From Tubulanus polymorphus (Eukaryota; Nemertea; Palaeonemertea; Tubulaniformes; Tubulanidae): a stretch of DNA of 64,000 bases. This document shows, in pieces, positions 29,617-44,600 of this stretch. The notes under the pieces were generated by a model, which had not been told where the DNA came from, did no database searches, and was given only the letters and a program-made list of their open reading frames with translations. Numbering within the stretch: position 1 is the first letter of the stretch; the number at the start of each line of letters is the position of its first letter. The position numbers were made by a program, and so were the translations under genes. The DNA lies in NCBI RefSeq assembly GCF_964204645.1, contig NC_134025.1, positions 10,297,001-10,361,000 on the forward strand, in the 5' to 3' direction.

Positions 29617-32600
29617 CTAAACAAGAAACATTACTTGTATCGAAAATGAACATTTATTTACACAAATGCAAACAAACCACAGGCAACAACGATTTTCGGG
29701 CTTAAAATATCAGCTTAAAATATCACGAATTAGTTGATATATTTCCTTACTCGTATTACGAGGTATCTTCCTGGATCTCTGGCCATTTTTTCGAATTCGT
29801 CTCCTAATTCCTTAAACGATGGACGACTCTCTGCATCTAACATCCAGCCTGAAATATACACAGAACATGTGAGACACGAATGGTCCAATAAAAACGAATG
29901 TAAATGATCCAATGATCCATGCATCAACCCTCCGATCATAAAGAATGCACACATTTTATCCCCATGGCAGTTTCCTGAAGCCCTTTTTGAAATAAAATAC
30001 AGTAAGATAGATATAATCTTTTGCCTGTTCAAAGTAGTATGATATAGTTTACTATACTGGTACATGCCTTTTATGTTGAGTACTATGTGCAACTCATATC
30101 GTTCATACTACCTAAGATCTTGACCTAGGTCTGTTAAACTTACATTTGATCATAATCATATAGACATCAATTGTACAAATGAGTGGTTGCGGTAATCGTT
30201 CTCCTTTCTCGAGCAAATCGGGAACATCTCTCGCTCGGATACCTTCATAGGGACGTTGACCATACGTAAACAATTCCCAAACCGTAACGCCTGAAACCAG
30301 AGAGAAATAATTCATACTTAAGCCTTACATGAACTAAAATCACACTTATATTGCTTTAAATAAGCTTATATAACATATATTGGGTCAAGGTGCCATTAAA
30401 ATTTACTTTTTAGATCAAGACTCAATCCACATGCCAAAAGTGCGGTACCTAGTTATTCAAGGATATTAAATCAGCCAATATCAATACATAAAATCCCATG
30501 ATACGAAAGAAGAAAGTGTCCAATATGTTTCCTTTTAGTATCATTCATTTTAACATTTCAACTTATTCTTATAGTCATCTTCACGAATCACTACTACTTT
30601 CAAAGTTACAACAAAATTACAATTTTTGGAACTAAAATTTGTATTTCCGAGTAATACTTACCCTTTCCTATGGTTTTTGCCAATATTTTCTAAATTTGGA
30701 TTGAGCGCCAATTGTTTTTCTATACGACCCGGCCCTGCGGTATTGCATTTAGCCACAGGCGAAATCCGCCATCTTTTTACGTCATAGCAGACCAAAAAAA
30801 AAAACAGCTATGCGGGGCAGGTGGGCGGGATTCCCACCATAGGAAAGGGTAAGTACTACTCGGAAATACAAATTTTAGTTCCAAAAATTGTAATATTTCC
30901 GTCGAGTACTGTACCCTTTCCTATGGTTTTTGCTAGACTAGCCTAGCACAAGGATGGTGGGAAAGGTAGATAGAAAAACCACCGCTCAAACGCAAGGTAA
31001 GAGGGAAAAAGAGAGCACTTACCCAAGCACGGAATGGAGCACTGTAGCACAGGGAAGACCGGTTGGCCACAGTGAGTCCGTCCAGCTCAGGGGCCCCCCA
31101 GAATTTTGCGAAATTAATACTTGCAGATATGAGCCCAAACTATGTACAAGGATACACCCCCTGTGATCCTGATAATGCAACATAAATATTCTACACTAAA
31201 GGGTCCGATCGGAAAGAACGGACACCTTGAGCCATGACAACAGGACCAAGTGAAGCTAATGAGCCTAACTGGCCTGAAACATCCCGTAAATAAAATGACG
31301 TGAATGTCGATGGAGAATTCCAAAAGGCGGCCTGACAGACTTCCTCCAACGGAGCACCCGAAAAGGCTGCGCAGGAAGTAGCCATAGACCTCACTTGATG
31401 AGGAACCACTCCCTCCGAGGAAAGATTCTCCTTCAATAAAATGTCCTTGATCAGTGAAGAGACCCATTGGGCCACTGTGTCCCGCGAAATATCACCCTTT
31501 AGGTGATCCAGCAGCGGAATAAATAACCGCTCCCGTGAACCCCTCCGTGAAGCAGAGCGATCTAAATAGAAACACAACGCCCGTGCAGGACATAAAGTCC
31601 TGTCCGGGATGCCCGGTTCCACTCGATGTTTTAGGGCTTCAATTCGCCATTGACGCCCAACCGAGCCTAGTAACGAGCTGTTCTCAGGGTTGTGGACACT
31701 CCCGCTACAGCTTCTTGAAGTTTGGCTACTCGAGCCATAGACGGAAAGACTTTGCCGATTCGGCAGCACCTGGAGTTGCGTAATACGCCGAGCGAAATGC
31801 GCCTATAGGTGGATCGGTTGAACTAAAATATTTCCCAGATTTCATACCCCGTTCTGGAGGGGGAAATGAAAATGTTCCAGGCCGACATTCACCCCATAAT
31901 TGCGTATCCAATCGAGCCCATTCTCTCGAAACCGCTGACGATTCCCGTAAAACGTTAAGATCGGAGTCCGGAGGGCGATAAGCTTCCATTGACTCACCGA
32001 CCAGAGGAGCTGCTGTGGGCTTAGCGCGAGTCGCCCCGTGCTTGACAAAGAACTCACTTATCATCGCTCTAAATGGCATGTCCCCCGCTGGTTCGGATAA
32101 AACTGAACGGGACGGAGATACATTGCGAGCCAGGGAAGCCCCCATCGTCTGGGGCAACCCACAATTGCTCGCGACAGGAACGACCCCAGAAGGAATTGCC
32201 GTTTCTGGGACCGGATCCTCATTGAAATCAGACCCTACCGCAGCATCCAGGAATTCAGAGTCAGAATTCCGAAGAACTGAGTGGGCTGGCGAACTTCTAA
32301 CCGGACAATCAGGAATAGGGTTACCTGTTGTAGAGGTTGCAGCGACTTGTTGCGACGAAGATAACAAGTTTGAAATTTTCTCTTCAAATACATGGAAATC
32401 CTTCTGAGTCAGGTATTTTCCAGTATCCCGACGATCATGCCGACTTCGGTGACGGTCCCTCGAACGGGATCGAGACCCACTAGAAGAATCGCCTTCATCG
32501 CTAACCGACGTCGACGAACGATGAGAAGACCGACGGCGAAACTTCCGACAATAATGATCGTAGTCCCTCTCGCGATCAAACCTTGATCTGCGAGAAGGAG

Positions 32601-35600
32601 ATCTTGCTCGTTTATTACGCTCACGGCGTCTAAATCTAGTGGGAGAGCGAGCTCTATCCCCGGAGCGACGATCAGAATCAGACGATGAACGTACCGGATG
32701 TTTTGAACCGGACGACGTCTGGACCGGACCGGTGCCCGAACCGGACCGGTGCCCGAACCGCACCGATGCCCGACCTGGACCGGTACCGACCGAACTGGTG
32801 CGGGCCGTTCCCGACTACCGCGGCGCGCGTTCGGTTCCGAACATGTAGTCTGAACCAGCCGAACCGGCTGAACTGGTGAACGACCAGAGACCGGTGAATG
32901 ACCGGAGACCGGTGCCGGTGAACCAGCGTTCCTCCCCGGTGAACGGAGTTGGGAAGCTGATCGTACCTGAACGACCGGCGACCGCTCCGCTTTACGATAA
33001 GAAACAGGATTAGAAACGTCGGTTGGCACATCGGCCGAAACCGACGAATCCCTGCTAACTCGACGACGATCTCTTAGTTTAAGAGCCTTATCGGCCCAAA
33101 GCCAAAGGTCCTCAGACCACACCTCGCAAATCTTGCAAGGATTGCTCCTTGCACATATTAGACCGGATTTGCGCCTGCACGACACACACGAATCGTGGTT
33201 GTCCCAGGCGCCAAACAAATGCCCGCATCCCTCCCTGCCACGATGTTGACCCTTAGGAGGGGGCGGCATAATTATCCTGTTACAAATCAAATCAATTCAA
33301 TTCAATCAAATTATATTTGTAAATAAAATTCTTACGGAAAAATAGAAACCAGGGATAACCCCCAAACCGAACGGACTCACCGTTATGAGAGTGAAAACTC
33401 CCTAATATCCTAATTCCCAGATTTTTACGGCGAAAAAATCCAACGCGTTCTACTGCGAGAACGCCAAGAAAAAAGATGGCGGATTTCGCCGGTGGCTAAA
33501 TGCAATACCGCAGGGCCGGGTCGTATAGAAAAACCATTGGCGATCAATCCAAATTTAGAAAATATTGGCAAAAACCATAGGAAAGGGTACAGTACTCGAT
33601 GGAAATATTATGAAACATATATACAATCCAGAACAGAGAGACTAACTTTGTAATCAGAAGCGATACAAACTGGGGGTAATACAATGTATAAACAGTTACA
33701 AGCTAAATGAATTCTAAGTAGAGTGAACTAGGGGGTTCTTGTCGTATATCGATATTATTGTATATCATTCTTACTACACGGACAGAATGTTTAAACGAGA
33801 TTATTGATCATGTAAATGCTCTTTCACTTACCGAAGCTCCAAACATCACTCTTTTTGGTAAATATTCGATGTTGGATGCATTCCAAGGCTAACCATTTTA
33901 TTGGCATCTAAAACAATCAAAACAGGGCATGAATCATATTGATAAGTGATTGCTACATGCATTTGGATTAACCATGTTGGTCTTGAAGGTTGCTGACTAA
34001 CCTTTCCACCAGTAGCGTGGTACTCCTCTTCATGGTAATCAAGAAGCTTTGCCAGACCAAAATCAGTGATCTTTACTTGCTGTGAACTTTGCACTGGAAA
34101 AAAGCATACAGATCATAATTCACCAAAACATGCGCATATTTGTACAATCAAATCATGATATGAATCATTTTCTGAAAACGCTGTGATTAGGACATAATGT
34201 GCTTACCCAACACATTCCTGGCGGCAAGATCTCTGTGAACAATGCCTCTTTCTTCTAAATATTGCATACCCTAGAAACAAACATACGCATTCGCAATAAG
34301 TATAGATGTATCCAGTACTATGCCCGAGGTAACTAACATATACATGAAAGTAAAATTTGTGCCAACAAATAAACCTTCTATGATTGAAAGCCAAGCCATG
34401 AACAACAAATATAACGTTTTACATTTATCAGTTACTAAATTCAATCCTCACATTACATTCACTACAAACTACTGGTACAACAGCAGCATAAAGAAATGCT
34501 CATACTTACCCTCGCTATCTGTGTACACCAGTTCAAAAGTGCTTTTGATCCTATATTTTTCTGGTGTTTGCGCACATAGTCCAGCAGACAACCAAGTGGC
34601 ATTAGTTGCGTAACGAGCATCATCTGCGCAGTCATACAAACACACAATACTCGTATACAACATGGATGATCGACGGACGCCATAACTCGAGCTTCTTCCA
34701 GGAGTTCTTTGTTCATGCAAGGCGAATTGCCTTCCTGAAGGACTTTAATCGCAACAGGAATCTTAACATTTTCACCTTCAGGTATCCATACACCCTGCAA
34801 AACAAATAAACCGGTAATTTCAATAAAAATGGCTGATACGAAAAGTCGTATAATCAAGCCCGTAGCCAGGGGGATATGTCCGTTCGAACGAACGCCCCTT
34901 TTTAGAAAGTGCCCTTCATGATTTTGGTAATTTTTTCAGCCAACTTGTTACAAATTATTACACGCTTTATGATACCTTTTTGTTGTCAATTGCTTATGGC
35001 TTTTGCGCATCCATTGAAACACTATTGTCTGTCTGAGCTGTCATATATGTTACAGGTTCAAAGGCACCTTCAGTGTAGGTCACATCCTACCAGCAACTCA
35101 ACTGGCAGTCCATTGTTTATAATGTTTTCAGAAACACATGTGGCTAACACTAGGCTCACACAGTAATGCAGATGACGAATTAAAAAAGAAATTTTCACAT
35201 TTCTTTCGAAGTGGATATTTAACCGTATACGGCAAAGTATTTACTTCCGCAATTTCTGCGTACATTATCACTATATATTTAGTATTAACTAATAAAAGTA
35301 ACAATAAAATCATTTTATTGGGTTAAGGGTAAGGGCTTCGATAGGGTTAGTGTCAAGAGGGTGAGAAGAGGGTCCAGAGGGTTCCGTTTTACCCCTAGGG
35401 ATAGGATTAGGGTAAGGTGAGGTACTATAGATAGTTGAAACATTCGAATGGTTTTCAGCGAGCTCGGTGGTCTAGTGGTATGAAGCTGCGCTAGTAATTT
35501 AGGCCTACTGTCTCGGGTTCGAGTCTCACTCTATCGGCTCTATTTTCTCTAACTCTGTTCTCCACACTTTCCTTGAATTTTCTAAGTCCCCCACTTCTGT

Positions 35601-38600
35601 GCGCATGCGCGGCGTAAATCAGCCAATCAGCGACGATGTACGGTAAAATAGTGGAAATAAACACTCAGCCGTATATGGTAAAATATCCACTGCGTATTTC
35701 TTTCATAACATTTTCATCATAGTATTCTTTTTAATTACATTTCACTGATTCCATAGATGTTTTTTGCTCCAGTAATTACAGATTTATACAAAAAATCATC
35801 GCTTTCAAATTCACCTCGTGTATGTGTGAGCGAAGCAGTGCCTTACGTTGGCGAAACAACTACATGCTATGTTCAATGAGGCAGGATAGGTTAACCTCCT
35901 TGGCCTCATGCACATACATTACGTTGGGGATATCTACAAAAGCTAGGGCGAGAATATTCGCGGGAAAACACCCAAGACGAATGTAGTTTATTATATTTAT
36001 TGATTATGATTTATTTGTTGGGTTTTATTGTTTGTGGAATAGCTACAAAATTCTATTTTAAGCATAGCCTGGGATACTGAACATGCAAAAGTGTCCTTTT
36101 TTATAATTTAAGAACGCCACTTTCAAAATCCTGGCTACAGGCTTGTTATAATACACTTCGGTATCCTATGAGTCACCAGTCCTGTCCAATGAAACATAAG
36201 ATCAGTCTTCTAGTTAAGTTTAAAACCTAGTTTTCATGAGCAGTTTCCAGAGAGCTTTTTTCATGCTACTGAAGCTGGAAGACACATCAGCAGAAAATAG
36301 CTATTGCAAATGCTTCCTGCTCTGCCCCAAAAAAAATGCCGTGAAAACGGTCAAACTGCAGCAGCAATTTTGGAAAGGAAATTCCATCAGGAAACTGCTG
36401 CTTATGAAAACGCGTGCCACTGCTATTGGTTGTCCGGGCGACCACGCGTATTTGTGCTTGTTGTCACCTAGGGTATTTTCACTTTTTTTAGCTGTAAAAA
36501 GCAAATTGCTGGCTCTGGAAGCTGCAACATGAAAATGCGTGTTGCTGAAGACATTTTCACATTGCAGGAAAAAGTTAGTTGGAAATAACTCATGAGAATT
36601 GGGCTTAAACATAAACATAATATGATTAACTGGCATACTGATAGTGCTATATTTTGCCTATCCTTGTAATAACATAAGGTATAGATACATCATACAAAGA
36701 ACCTTAACTTCTAAAGCTTACACATTTTTGTGAAATCAAGGAAGTTATATCCTAGTGTGTTATTTCATATGATAGTGGATTCTTCAATTTACCTTGTAGA
36801 CAGTTCCAAAAGCTCCAGATCCTATGATTCCACCTCGTCGTAATTCCGACTCTTTAACAAGTCTCATGTGCGCCATATCCGGTTTAGCATCAGACGGAGT
36901 TAAAGGCTGTAAAAAACGCAGGAATGTCGCATTGTTAAGATCATGGTGAAATGTTCGTTTGTACGTGGAAAAGACGTAAAATCTACAAACCACATCGTCG
37001 GTATATCCGCTGAGACGCGCGGTCAGTTTCAAAGCGTTCTCCTTCGACAGGGCTCTCAAGCGACAATAGTAAGCAATAACTCCGATTCCGATGATAATGA
37101 GAAACACTGCACCCGTCACAGATCCAATCACAACACTCATGGACCTTTAATTAACAAATGGTGATTCATAATCAGGATTAAAAACTCAAGGTTCTGAATT
37201 CATAAGCCACAATCACACAGAGACAATTTGGCCGGGCTGAACTGGCACGGATCAGGCCCGAGTCAAATCTGGCCCGTGCCTAATTAGAGACCACGTTCAC
37301 ACGTAAACCCCTCACTCGATACTAAACAATGCTTAAACAAAGCAAAGTGAATCACTTCCAGAACCAATTGCAATTCACAAGCAATGATTTGACCGGTGCT
37401 AAAATTTGGCCTGGTCCAATGTCTTTGGTCGGGTCATGTTTGGCCTGGGTCAAATAGGCACAGGCCCATTTGGCACCCAGGCCAAAAATGGTCCGTGCGA
37501 TCGCGGCTATAATGAAATTGCAAAATACTTACGCAGGCATCGTAACTAGACAAACATCTTCACCAGTTTCCTTGTCAGCATCAGTATATGGGTGTGTCTT
37601 TGGACACTTTGCAGTACAATTTATCTTCTATAAAGGGTGTAAAAAACTTTTAGGGATACAATTATCACTTGTAAAGATTACCAGTAACAAAAGCAGGCAT
37701 CATCTTCATCAAGTCACTTGAGATACAAGTAAATACAATATTCAACAAATATTATGTGTAGCTCTCGAAGCCTATAAGTTGTACTTACCCTGTCTTTGCC
37801 AGGATCATCTATGTCAACTCTAAAATGCAGGCATAATTTACAATCGGTTGTACTTTTACCAGTGCACCCACGTTTACATTCATCATGGCAATTTCGACAG
37901 ATCAGGTCTCCTACTTCATCCGGCTCGGCATACGTGCCTTCTGGACATCTCGAAATACATCGGCTTTGGAAGCGGTAATATTTGCAGCGAGGACAGTTAT
38001 AATCACCAGCAGATGTACATGTTCTACACATGTCATCGCATCGAATACAACTCTGAAACACAGTAATATAGCCGCATAAGATACATTTTATAATAACTAT
38101 ATCTACCCATGATTGAGTTATGGTGCATCTTTGGCAATTAAAAGAGATTCAAATACTTGTATTCAGTTAATCGAAAACTCTATATAGTTCAGTCCACCTC
38201 CTGATAAAACCATGACCGAGCTCTACATTTGAACTAAAAAATTGGCTCATTTTCAATAAGCAACATTTGTGAGACTGGTTCTAATATAGAGCCAGTTCCA
38301 CAGTTCTTGATTAAGATTCAAGGCTTTGACTGAAAGAGATGAGGGTCTGAGTAAAACATTTACTGTAGAAAAAATCAAACAGACTAAAAAGGTTGAATCT
38401 CAGGAAACATCTATGAATTTGATTGTAATTGGCATGCTTTCTCATCATTTACAACACGATTTAGCAACTGGGTCAGATAACTAGGATACTTCTTACAGCA
38501 TTTTGGCAGAAAGTTACATCAAAATAAGTCGATCTACTATGAACATTCAACGTGGGTACTTACTGCAAGACGTAACAAAGAACTGAATGAATTTTTGTCC

Positions 38601-41600
38601 GAATGTTGATTCAATGTGTATTTCAGATAATATCCGTCCGGGCAGACGTATTTATCTGGATTGCTCTCCAAACAATGGTCGACCTCAGTCGCATTTTTCA
38701 TCACCACGAACGAACAATTGTTGCAAGCGTTCTTTCCAACCTTGTTCAACGGGCCGGTACATCTAAGATATCACACAACAGAATGTGAATGTTACATGCT
38801 CGACTGACTCAGGAAAGAACACACGAATAAGAAAACCAAGAAGAACTTACCCGCCGACGCAATAATCATGGCACGGTTTACAGTGTTTGGTATCATCGGG
38901 ATATTTTGAACTCGGACACTTTTCAACACAGAAAGGACCATCTTTGAAATTCTTGCAGCCGTCTGAACAGTGGTCGGAATCCTAGATATTAGATGCATCT
39001 ATATTATTTCAACTGCGATAACAAGTATACATATTATTATGATTTTCTTCACCTTAAGAGATATTGTGTGAACCGGTGAAATGGCTATTTCATTAGTTGA
39101 ATAAAATTAGTAACCTGAGCACTAATAAACCCCGAAAACCTATTCCAGCCATCATAATGCTTCTACTAAATTCATGGGCAATCAATTGTTAAGCTTTAAG
39201 AAAGGCTAAAAACACGCAGTTCCCATGGGTGTTTAGCTAGTCGAAACAAATGATCTATGACATACGTCTGAGTCTTAAGGCTAGCATTTAACCCTTTCAT
39301 TGCATCTACACCGTAGTGTGGTGTGTAAAGAGGTGATGGTCTTTGCTAGTACACCGCATCACAGTGTATTGATGTTATTAATTAGTTTTCATCTCGATTG
39401 AAAGATGGCAGTACCTGTCTGACTTAGTGGAATACTATTAACAAAACACCATCATCCCGAAGTGTAAACAAACTACAGCCCATTTTTCAACACACTGGGT
39501 TAGAATTTTCAAAAGATTTTTTTCAAATTATCTCCAGCTTTTTTGAATATCAATAATCATATCACTGAAAGGGTTATACGTGAATGATGAAGAAAATCAA
39601 AAGGAGCTACATTAGCTTGACTAATTGAAAGAAAATTTGGACCCACTCTTGCTTCCACTGAAAAGTTCAGTGCACAATGAAATAAATTCTATCTGTGTAA
39701 CTGTGAACAAATTGAATTGAACTTACCGGCCCTTTACAGTTAGAGTTGCATTCTTTGTGGCATTTTTTGCACGTTTGATTTCCAGCGTCATAAAGTCCAG
39801 GTTCGCTGTAGCAACTCGAAACGCAACGGCTACCGACGCGGAAATTGACACAATCTTGACACTGCTCGGGTCCAGGACCCATGCAGCCACCCGCGCATCC
39901 TGGATCGCATTTTAAGCCTTTGGTTACTGAAAAATTACAAGTGAGTCATACTATCAGTTATCTATATGAAACCATGCCTATACAAAAATCATAAATCCTA
40001 CGTTAATAAAAGCATTGCGTTATACGCTTTTTAGTGATATTACTAATTATTAAGCCAATCACCTAAATTTTCACTCTAAGACGTTATGTCTCATTAATAA
40101 TATTGTGTTCAACTTTTATAGTTTTATAATTTGTTAGTTTTCTCGGATCAAATTGATTCTTTAATCAATGCATAGGTGTAATATATGTTTTAAAAAGCAA
40201 ATCTTTAACCAGCAAACTGCGTTGTTAAAAATCTTAATGTAACAACAAAAAAAAACTAATTTTCATGAGTAATCTATACCATTTGAACTTTTAGACCAGT
40301 GAATTTCACTACTTTTAAACTATTGTGGAGTTTTGAAAGGTTAGTAAATACACCTATATATTGTGCGTGCAAATTACAAAGATGTTACAAAGATGTTAGA
40401 TGAGGTACTGTTAAAAACAACCTCTAACCATAATGTTAGACAAAAATAAAATATCATTTGAAAAAAAATTAAAAAGTTACTTGGTAATTGTTATCTTCTA
40501 AGTTATGAATAAAGTTACAAATCAATTGATACTAGTAGGACAGGGACACCATGCTCACTTGGAAAAATGCTTGACAATCTGACTACTTCATTCAATGCCC
40601 CCTCCCACAATTTTGCAATTGATTGTTGTTTCAAAATGTATATCATTTAGTTTTTAACCCCCCTCCCCATCAAAAAACCTTTTTCTATCTACAAATAAGG
40701 ACTGATGACACTAAGATGGCTAATGATTGCATAAAAAACCCCTCTGATCTATGAATAACCCTGTTCTCAAAACATTACGTATATCAATGAAAAATAGCAG
40801 ACCATTAAGAACCTAAGCTTTAAGGTCAAAGGATAGCCATCTTGTGTCCGATGGGCCTAGTTTTTCTGAAGATGATGGGCAAATATACACATAATATTGA
40901 GAATATTGATCAAAGTGTCCACAAAATTTCCTTGAAATCCTCGAAAACAAAAAAATAACAATGGCTGCCAGTTCATCATTGTAATTTCGATCAAGCCAGC
41001 TTTTTGGGCTGCCCATGGGCAGATACGCCAAATATCAAGACAATCCATTGCAACGTCTTCAAAACTTCCCAAAATAACTGGATTCAAGGATTCCATTTAC
41101 CCACAGCAAATGGATAGAAAAGTGAATGCATTAGTGTGCTGCAAGTGGGCTACAAAATTGAAAATGAAATACATAAACTAATCAACAAATAATTAAAAAT
41201 ACAATGTAAAATGCCTGAAGATGCAAATTCATTCACAGAGAATTTCACGACTGCTCTGGGGTGAGGTAACAGCATTGTCAGGCTTGTGAGTGTAACAAGA
41301 GTGTATAAGGCACCCAATCAGTCCTCAACAGGTCGAACTGAGAGACTGTCGGAGTGTCCGCAACATTCAGACATTCATAACGGGAAGCATGCATATATCC
41401 AGGGACAAAATGGGTTCAGGAGTCTGGAAGGGTGTAGGGTACACTATTCATGGGAATGTTTCTTTAAACAAATGATTTCTTTAAAATGTTAGCATAAAAA
41501 CCAATTTCAGAAACAATGACAATCATCCTTAAACTGACGTGTCGGAAAAATCTTTTAAATCTTCTTCTCAGCAACTAATATCAGTGCGTTGGAAGTACTT

Positions 41601-44600
41601 ATTCTAATAACTTACGCCAGGCAGCATTTGTGCAATAAATCTAAAATCTAATATCGTGATAAGCCGTGATAATATTGCGATATCTTTTCCAAAGCTACTA
41701 GGAAAGTACTCGACAACAATAGACATCTTATGAATGTGCGAGAGGTTTGTGTGTGTGTGTGCGCACCGCGACACCGTTCCAGACCCTTAACCTGTGTGCT
41801 ATAGTGAATCAACTAAAAAGACTGTACAACGACATGCACAACTAATAAGGACGACTCAGCATATGGTCAAACACAACAACATCGGTGGTTACTACCATAT
41901 ATGAGTCAAAGTTTTTTTTTTCACTTACAACACATTTCGGGAACACCGTTCAAGTGAATATAGAATGTATTTATGAATTTTTTCCAATCGATCGTATCAG
42001 CCAAGCAGAGGGCTTTATTTTGGACTATGATTACATTGCCATTTTGTAGGCTTTTAAGCGATTTCAACCCTAAATACTGTATATGGTCGCTGCGGGAAAT
42101 CTGTATCACTGCCTCGTAGCTGTAAATAGATCATGTTAGAACATATTGAAACAAACGTAGCTTATTCACGTGAGCTATATCAGATAGTGAGTTCGAACTG
42201 CCGACTATTATTATTATTCCATTGAAAGTCATGTGAACCCTCCAATTAAGTCGAATGAAACCACGACAGATTATGTCAAATAGTCAATATAGGCTAAGTA
42301 TTGAAACCGTAGGGAGACAAATAACAGTGTTGGCAGTAAAATCCCAATACGACCTGACATAGCTCGCCTTTCAGCAACGGAAAGGCTGTTCCACCTTAAT
42401 TTCATAGGTCGCCAGTGTTCGGTATCTTTTTTCATTGATTCACACCTCTTTGGGTCGTATTCAAAGAGCGTCCTGTTATATCGAATCATCCGATCTCTGC
42501 TTGCTTTGCTCAACGCAGCGCAAGGTCGCTAAGTCAAACAGGACGAGGCGAGTACATCCGAGAAAACAACTGGCGACGTATGACATGAAGGCTGTTAGTA
42601 AACGCTAAAGAATGAAAAAACTTACAACACTTAGCCCGGCCCGAGTTCTTGGCAAAGTATGATTTGGCATTCGGATTCAGTTTTGACCAGTCATAATCGA
42701 CAGCAAAACATAATTGTGGGTTATTCGAAATAAAGATTACGCCGGCCGAATTGCGCAACTGCTTGAGCGAGCGCAGTCCCAAGTAAGTTAAATACTTATT
42801 GTGACTGACGTGTAGGATTGATCCGCTCCTGTAAATTATGTTTCGAGAACACGAGAAAAACAAAATGAACATTTTCACGAGAACAAACACACGAAAAGAA
42901 ACAGACGCGGTTTCACAGAACAGGATTTTAGTCACAAATGTAGGTAATAATCCCCCCTGGGTAAAAAAATAGCCCAGAATCAATTTTCTATCAAACTAGA
43001 ATAAAAACACTTAGAACTATCAAGGAACACATATGTACATAGATATTATGACTTTTAAACTATATTTCTTTATAGAAATATTCAAAACTACAATAATGCC
43101 ATTTTTGATGCATGTAGCTTGCTATAAGTGACTGAATGATGTATAATTTGTATGCATGTAACTCTTTTAAGTCACAGATTATCCAAGGTGAATATTGTGA
43201 TCAGCACTAAGGAACTTTTAAATTTTTGAAATCTATCAAAGTTTTTCGGCATAATGGTGAAGTATTTTGTTGTGAAATCAAATTTGGGGGGATTTTTACA
43301 CATATAAGTCACATACACAGGAACATGGGAGATAGTCGGACAAATTCCAAAAAAAATCTCAAAATCCCATAACTCCATATATCTTTTACTTTCATGATTG
43401 TTATGGCAATAAACATTTTGGAGCTGGCAACGAAGCTTTGCTAGAGATGTTGAAACATTTGGCGCTGAACTGGTAAATTGGTTAAATTAATCCATAGGCC
43501 GCTGGATTAAAAACCCACGTAAAGTAGGCATATACGTTCGAAGCCAGGTTTTCATCATTAATATTTTCAGGAAATGTTTTGTTGGATATGAAGGTGGCTA
43601 TCAAAAAAAAAACTTACCGATCCAGATATTTCCCATGAATAGTCTCGAGGTTCTCCAGAAAGCTAAGATTCGTCAAATTTTTGTGGTCGGACTGAATCAT
43701 GAGATAGCCGTGAATTTCTTTGACGTCTTTTAAAGCGTTCAGCTCCGACGGTTCCATCGGTCGATAACCATAATGCGGGTCACTAAAAATGGGATATACG
43801 GTCCACATGATACAGAGATTCAGGATTTTCAACCCCAGACAGCCATCTGTACTCGAAGTATGTCTTAGGTTGAAAAATTCATTCCGGGTCAAACATAAAA
43901 TAAGTACTATTTCAATTAATCAAACTATGAACCCTGGAACTGGCTCCAGATGATACAGTTCAGTTGATTTTTTGAATCTAAATCTCGGCTGAGCCATTCT
44001 GTGCCATCGTACTTACCCGGAGAATGAGGTAGACAGGATTCGGACGTTGTTTGTGATTACAGTACAGCCGCGGAATTGCCCGATATTGTTCGAATGGATA
44101 AAATCATTGTCACCTATAATGCCCGGACAGTCTGAATAGGAAAAAGAAAAATACATCATTTTTGGAAGAAGTTTCAGATGGCTATCATGATGCTATGACA
44201 ACAATTGAATAGCGGGAATCACAACTTCAAACTGAGGGATGTCTCAAATGATTTAGATTTTTCACTTAATTCGGATGAAATATTTGGTCTATTCAACCTG
44301 GAACCATTATTCATAATCTGGATTTTACTTAACTTAGTTCTATTAAATAAACTGATTTTGGAAACTATGTGTAGTATATAGGTATAGTGAGGTCTAAAAG
44401 ATACTCTCAAAAGATTCAAACTTATTTCCTTTGGCCCCTGCATTTTGATTGAAATGTCTTATGTCGCCTACGGGATGAGGCACCCGCTGAATAAGAACTG
44501 ATCCACCGGGTATACGTGAGGCTTCATGTTTCTTATCTAACACACAATTCTGCCTGTTGCTTGCCTATTTCTAGACTATATCAATCGATATGTTATAATG

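Follow-up and report, generated by a model that had tools for sequence, protein, structure and literature searches.

The EGFR gene and its tandem exon pair

The window, by which we mean the whole stretch of 64,000 nt analysed here, comes from contig NC_134025.1 of the nemertean Tubulanus polymorphus and carries on its minus strand a gene for an epidermal growth factor receptor (EGFR), modelled from splice sites and homology with 27 exons when the two alternative exons A and B are both counted, and with 26 exons per mRNA (Table 1). The model starts 3′ of the signal-peptide coding exon or exons, its 5′ end being represented by candidate frames only; from there, the mRNAs with A or B (isoforms A and B) stay open to a single terminal stop, giving translations of 1400 and 1396 characters, respectively, stop included. 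Pfam matches cover the full domain set of an EGFR/ErbB receptor: L1 (PF01030, 83.4 bits), furin-like (PF00757, 86.2 bits), L2 (PF01030 again, at 92.7 bits in isoform A, 95.1 bits in isoform B and 51.2 bits in an artificial construct from which both exons are missing), growth factor receptor domain IV (PF14843, 101 bits) and tyrosine kinase (PF07714, 314.5 bits), the latter with HRDLAARN and DFG intact in the translation. When the isoforms were compared with chains of solved structure, the 60 best of 108 distinct sequences for isoform B, and the 60 best of 110 for isoform A, were EGFR or ErbB2-4, with one exception common to both (9mtx_B), which is named only 'receptor protein-tyrosine kinase'.

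Table 1. Features of the EGFR locus, in window positions
Feature	Position	Strand	Length	Description
EGFR gene model	28042-50449	-		L1, cysteine-rich II, L2, extended cysteine-rich IV, transmembrane segment, tyrosine kinase, tail
Exon U (constant, 5′ of A and B)	43618-43782	-		First half of domain III
AG-exclusion zone before exon A	42831-42956	-	126 nt	Pyrimidine-rich; predicted distant branch point
Alternative exon A	42626-42828	-	203 nt	Encodes the second half of L2 (EGFR domain III); phase 2 to phase 1
A-B intron	42120-42625	-	506 nt	
Alternative exon B	41929-42119	-	191 nt	Homologue of A; phase 2 to phase 1
Exon D (constant, 3′ of A and B)	39727-39926	-		Start of cysteine-rich domain IV

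Searching the 267.8-Mb assembly for the L-domain family gave seven matches, six of them above the cut-off, at two loci, namely the EGFR gene and one gene on contig C5. The second gene looks like an insulin receptor from its L domain and cysteine-rich sequence; at C5:23008501-23018500, a single exon of it encodes the whole L domain (97.3 bits) and is followed by cysteine-rich exons. A single EGFR was found in the assembly by this search, which weak or masked matches might escape.

Two other parts of the gene deserve description. Domain IV is extended (window 37533-39926), with five cysteine-rich exons and three stretches that match the domain IV model; in human ErbB receptors this domain is shorter. 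The intron between kinase exons K5 and K6 (window 30500-33600) holds mobile-element-like open frames of 295, 362 and 203 aa, which have a recombinase-like, DIRS-like look; a Pfam scan of the 295- and 203-aa frames gave no match. By eye, copies of the motif CCATAGGAAAGGGTA flank these frames on both sides, and one segment of the intron folds at a z score of -10.5.

The exon pair lies within the sequence for domain III, the principal ligand-binding domain of the receptor. Exon U ends in ...CTG GAT CG at 43618, in phase 2, and the lengths of A and B are both 2 mod 3. The acceptors read ...AATTTACAG|GAG for A and ...TATTTACAG|CTA for B, with TTTACAG common to the two, and the donor GTT|GTAAGT is identical in both. 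At the protein level, A and B align with a BLOSUM62 score of 85, as against a maximum of 21 in 5,000 shuffles, and share 21 of 61 aligned residues (34%). As checked by script, the frame is open in U+A+D and in U+B+D. Joining both exons (U+A+B+D) yields ...AKC followed by STRQ and a stop, which falls at the end of domain III, and joining neither (U+D) yields 31 wrong residues (NQRLKM...PRR) and then a stop within exon D. The pair combines the properties by which mutually exclusive exons are recognized: adjacent homologues, identical phases, consensus splice sites and a frame that is open only with one of the two. The initial annotation had given these exon coordinates, the TTTACAG acceptors, the GTAAG donors and the passage from phase 2 to phase 1, and our script recovered all of them; its further statements, that the exons are homologous over their whole length at about one-third identity, that double inclusion leads to an early stop (Ser-Thr-Arg-Gln-stop), that skipping both shifts the frame of the exon at 39926 and that a full receptor frame results only from using one exon at a time, are likewise borne out, the last on the whole 26-exon mRNA model. 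The frame does not by itself make splicing exclusive; the other products merely become unproductive.

Homology, age and constraint of the two exons

When the peptides of all 27 exons were compared with the window by tblastn (E up to 0.5), the A/B pair emerged as the sole extra exon copy. The remaining matches linked cysteine-rich modules with one another or L1 with L2, or else were weak and fell outside exons, the best of these last (E 0.023) coming from the low-complexity tail exon C4. At the DNA level, A and B with their flanks gave only short chance-level matches (best E 0.31), and because significant similarity is absent there, the duplication is read as old and not as an assembly duplicate. 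An unrooted tree of the exon region (60-70 residues, flanking constant residues excluded) sets A and B apart from the four human receptors with only 72% support.

Several observations argue that both exons have been maintained. Taken alone, A scores 33.4 bits and B 35.6 bits in Pfam, where the cut-off for the L domain is 21.8 bits. Identity to human EGFR is 25/64 (39%) for A and 26/62 (42%) for B, compared with 35/83 (42%) for the constant part of the domain (exons L2a and U), so both look maintained, being as close to the human receptor as the constant half. The other human receptors give a less even picture: identity to ErbB3 is 33/83 (40%) for the constant part, 25/65 (38%) for A and 16/63 (25%) for B, and identity to ErbB4 is 33/83 (40%), 31% and 32%, respectively. 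By that measure B, at 25% and 32% against 40% for the constant part, is less conserved. Identity to ErbB2 is 19/64 for A and 16/62 for B. Between A and B themselves, identity at codon positions 1, 2 and 3 is 0.48, 0.56 and 0.33, where chance would give 0.26, 0.27 and 0.25; third positions are thus near chance while the protein is conserved, which points to protein-level constraint on both exons.

These data bear directly on the possibility that one exon alone is used and that the other is a relic that dropped out of splicing not long ago and whose decay is still pending. We simulated such decay by neutral substitution (2,000 runs per exon, substitutions only, no indels). At 0.5 substitutions per site, each exon kept its frame and both splice sites in 1.4% of runs, so that about 99% of the simulated dead exons were visibly broken, and the score against human EGFR dropped to about 15-17 from 91 (A) and 94 (B). 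A long-dead exon is very unlikely. At 0.2 substitutions per site, 10-12% of the simulated dead exons still kept frame and splice sites and would look intact, which leaves some room for a recent loss. Codon usage, scored with a model built from the remaining exons of the gene, does not separate either exon from introns, an overlap that a relic would also show: of 530 intron segments, 42 equal or exceed A and 77 equal or exceed B. The score is best in the correct frame for 24 of the 27 exons, A and B included. The lower likeness of B to ErbB3 and ErbB2, relative to A, is also what a decaying B might display. Against a relic stand the full splice sites, matched phases and open frame of both exons, their stand-alone family scores, their match to human EGFR at the level of the constant half of the domain and the unusually long AG-free acceptor region of exon A, and we consider this reading quite improbable. 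A search for retrocopies with a spliced A-D or B-D junction, allowing up to three mismatches, gave no match.

Splicing signals and the choice between exons

The mutually exclusive reading proposed in the initial annotation is supported by homology, tandem order, phases and frame incompatibility, together with the constraint seen on A and B and the integrity of the receptor gene. We consider it very probable, as a prediction from the genome, that this one EGFR gene carries A and B as a tandem-duplicated pair whose use is mutually exclusive. Splicing would pick one exon per transcript, so that each mature mRNA would contain one of A and B; exon U and its upstream neighbour, which encode the first half of domain III, would stay constant, and the second half, which contains part of EGF contact site 3, would be swapped. 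One gene would in this way encode two receptors that share their kinase but differ in the ligand pocket. Within this chain, the two exons, their matched phases, the complete L domains obtained with either, the truncation obtained with both or neither and the constraint can be read in the DNA itself. Removal of the wrong products would presumably fall to nonsense-mediated decay, their stops lying far upstream of the last junction.

The most distinctive signal around the pair is the acceptor region of exon A. Its AG-exclusion zone is the longest of the gene's 27 acceptors (the next measures 79 nt, the median is 39), exceeds the length of at least 100 nt that serves as a mark of distant branch points, and is equalled at none of the 14,342 intron positions examined, all of them beyond the first 150 nt of their introns. 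Long AG-exclusion zones are described as going together with distant branch points and, in human, with exons that show raised rates of alternative splicing (PMC1431707). The zone suggests that A has a regulated acceptor, and a distant branch point would make A the regulated choice of the pair. In some known mutually exclusive exons, a distant branch point near the upstream exon promotes exclusion (PMC1431707). Exon A resembles such tropomyosin-type exons in having an AG-free zone of at least 100 nt before a putatively alternative exon, and differs from them in that its predicted distant branch point sits in the 789-nt intron leading into A, the first of the two exons. Since it lies there, it cannot alone enforce exclusion, and the zone of A cannot alone forbid the joining of A to B. 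Exclusivity most likely rests on regulated acceptor choice together with nonsense-mediated decay of the mRNAs that include both exons or skip both.

Other devices were considered for the selection itself. Simple steric exclusion was rejected, the A-B intron being too long for it. Folded alone, this intron has a z score of about -4 and it ranks seventh among 38 intron segments of the gene, and its RNA secondary structure was rejected as a selector because this rank is not special; its local hairpin alone reaches a z score of -1.7. Pairing of the A donor with the B acceptor, seen in the minimum-energy fold, was discarded as evidence because GUAAG and UUUAC pair trivially. The intron also contains an inverted repeat of 23 nt with 87% identity (window 42394-42416 and 42569-42591). 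A genome search with the 361-nt core of the intron hit nothing but the core itself, on which ground a mobile element was rejected, and at the gathering threshold Rfam gave no match in the window.

Short motifs that we take to be splicing-factor sites (UGCAUG, ACUAAC, UGUGU, paired YCAY and PTB-type) were located as well. A single UGCAUG lies 90 nt past the B donor and a single ACUAAC 26 nt past the A donor, each of these motifs being present in 4 of the 26 introns. The intron between U and A (42829-43617) contains four UGUGU and four paired YCAY sites, by plain count 5.07 per kb each, compared with 1.72 and 2.05 per kb, respectively, over all introns; PTB-type motifs showed no enrichment. RNA structure and splicing-factor motifs lend no specific support to a selector, and the motifs are leads only.

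The same features could serve a different end, if the pair mainly set receptor dose or supplied soluble receptor, with double inclusion or skipping yielding a regulated truncated ectodomain or an unproductive mRNA. The position of the stops, at the end of domain III after double inclusion and in the next exon after skipping, would suit such a role, as would the tie between long AG-exclusion zones and alternative splicing (PMC1431707). One skippable or poison exon would suffice for that purpose, however, which leaves unexplained why both exons encode a complete, diverged half of an L domain, and the truncated products would be expected targets of decay; this makes the reading highly improbable. 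Still harder to credit is that A and B are joined through a frame-restoring alternative splice site into one receptor with a longer domain III. The consensus sites of A and B, when joined, give a stop, and a repeated half L domain would probably disrupt the compact beta-helix. We regard joint inclusion as barely conceivable, and continue with mutually exclusive use of A and B.

Ligand pocket and known parallels

Site 3 of human EGF binding on domain III comprises Leu382, Gln384, Phe412 and Ile438 (PMC3728333), and His409 and Val417 are also named for it (PMC2834686). In the nemertean gene, constant exon U covers the positions of Leu382 and Gln384, which are Met and Gln, respectively; those of Phe412, Val417 and Ile438 lie within A and B, and that of His409 lies at or adjoining the junction. 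At the position of human Ile438, A has Phe and B has Ile, and the strand there is immediately preceded in A by two additional residues. Positions of the first strand (human 409-417) carry an alignment uncertainty of one residue, the alignment to solved chains placing a gap there: with no gap assumed, A has His and B has Arg at the position of Val417, and Phe412, given this uncertainty, corresponds to Ile or Ser in A and to Val or Ala in B. The framework, consisting of LGL-SLK, N--LC, the Trp and the closing Cys, is common to both exons. Against solved chains, isoform B scores highest with ErbB4 (149.4 bits), followed by EGFR (143.9) and ErbB3 (up to 134.4), and isoform A with ErbB3 (143.7), followed by EGFR (up to 137.9) and ErbB4 (124.9), all of these being whole-sequence scores that include a second match to L1. 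Different pockets on one fold appear to be the natural reading. The swap would then alter ligand affinity or choice, and, judging from where the site-3 residues fall, would most likely tune ligand choice.

The stretch of human EGFR that matches A and B covers about residues 409-475 of the domain III chain. Human EGFR has one such exon, exon 12, which is 200 nt long and runs from phase 2 to phase 1 and whose boundaries, we presume, fall at the same codons as those of A and B. If human exon 12 indeed shares boundaries and phases with the pair, the duplicated unit would be one ancestral exon, single in human and duplicated and diverged here.

The close parallel in function is found in fibroblast growth factor receptors, where the second half of Ig domain III comes from one or the other of the alternative exons IIIb and IIIc. 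The two isoforms of FGFR2 bind ligands with different specificity, and an mRNA that lacks both exons is frameshifted into a stop (PMC5096029). The nemertean pair is alike in belonging to a receptor tyrosine kinase, in consisting of a swappable exon and in shifting the frame to a stop when both are skipped. It is unlike in that an Ig domain and unrelated ligands are concerned there and the receptor L domain of EGFR here, which makes the likeness one of analogy only, and in that the ligand effect is known for FGFR2 and is here predicted from the positions of the site-3 residues. More generally, tandem duplicated exon substitutions of metazoans involve homologous neighbours that are swapped, mostly ancient, in proteins identical outside the swap (PMC9741552); the predicted one-for-one swap of A and B is of this kind. 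That paper, which treats 236 human events with emphasis on ion channels, mentions neither EGFR nor FGFR in its main text (PMC9741552). Mutually exclusive tandem exons as such are already known (PMC9741552), and the EGFR pair is a predicted case of them, very well supported at the level of gene structure. The main text of a survey of metazoan EGFRs contains none of the strings 'splic', 'exon' and 'isoform' (PMC4914847). The open-access titles and abstract starts listed included none on mutually exclusive exons in the EGFR ectodomain, database annotations, among which automatically made isoforms may exist, and subscription papers lying outside this scope; the initial annotation's claim that no EGFR with alternative L2 exons had been described is thus not contradicted among the open-access matches listed, absence being unprovable.

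EGFR is among the most studied receptors, and gene duplication (ErbB1-4) is the usual explanation for how diverse its ectodomain is. Swapping the second half of domain III would, if true, be a second route to such diversity, convergent with FGFR IIIb/IIIc. Two annelids and a nemertean combine one EGFR with three or four ligands (PMC4914847). The pair makes testable how single-EGFR animals discriminate several EGF- and neuregulin-like ligands, with A and B offering natural pocket variants on a constant kinase. A bolder proposal, which we put forward as speculation and hold to be unlikely, is that the single EGFR uses exon choice instead of gene duplication, that isoforms A and B share out the ligands of EGF and neuregulin type according to tissue, as vertebrate EGFR and ErbB3/ErbB4 do, and that the pair is old, perhaps phylum-wide or wider. 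Its age is suggested by the distance between A and B (34% identity), which is at least that of each to human EGFR (39% and 42%).

A search for mitochondrial COX1 gave no match. Elsewhere in the assembly, a Hox cluster with ten homeobox exons, ordered and on one strand, occupies C6:5318228-5634747, and judged by these genes the animal looks lophotrochozoan. It includes a Lox5-type gene in which the homeobox is followed by AKLNGP, and its other genes are presumably Lox2, Lox4 and one posterior gene. We read AKLNGP as a probable variant of the Lox5 parapeptide KLTGP, which is described as a mark of lophotrochozoans and flatworms (PMC5431905).
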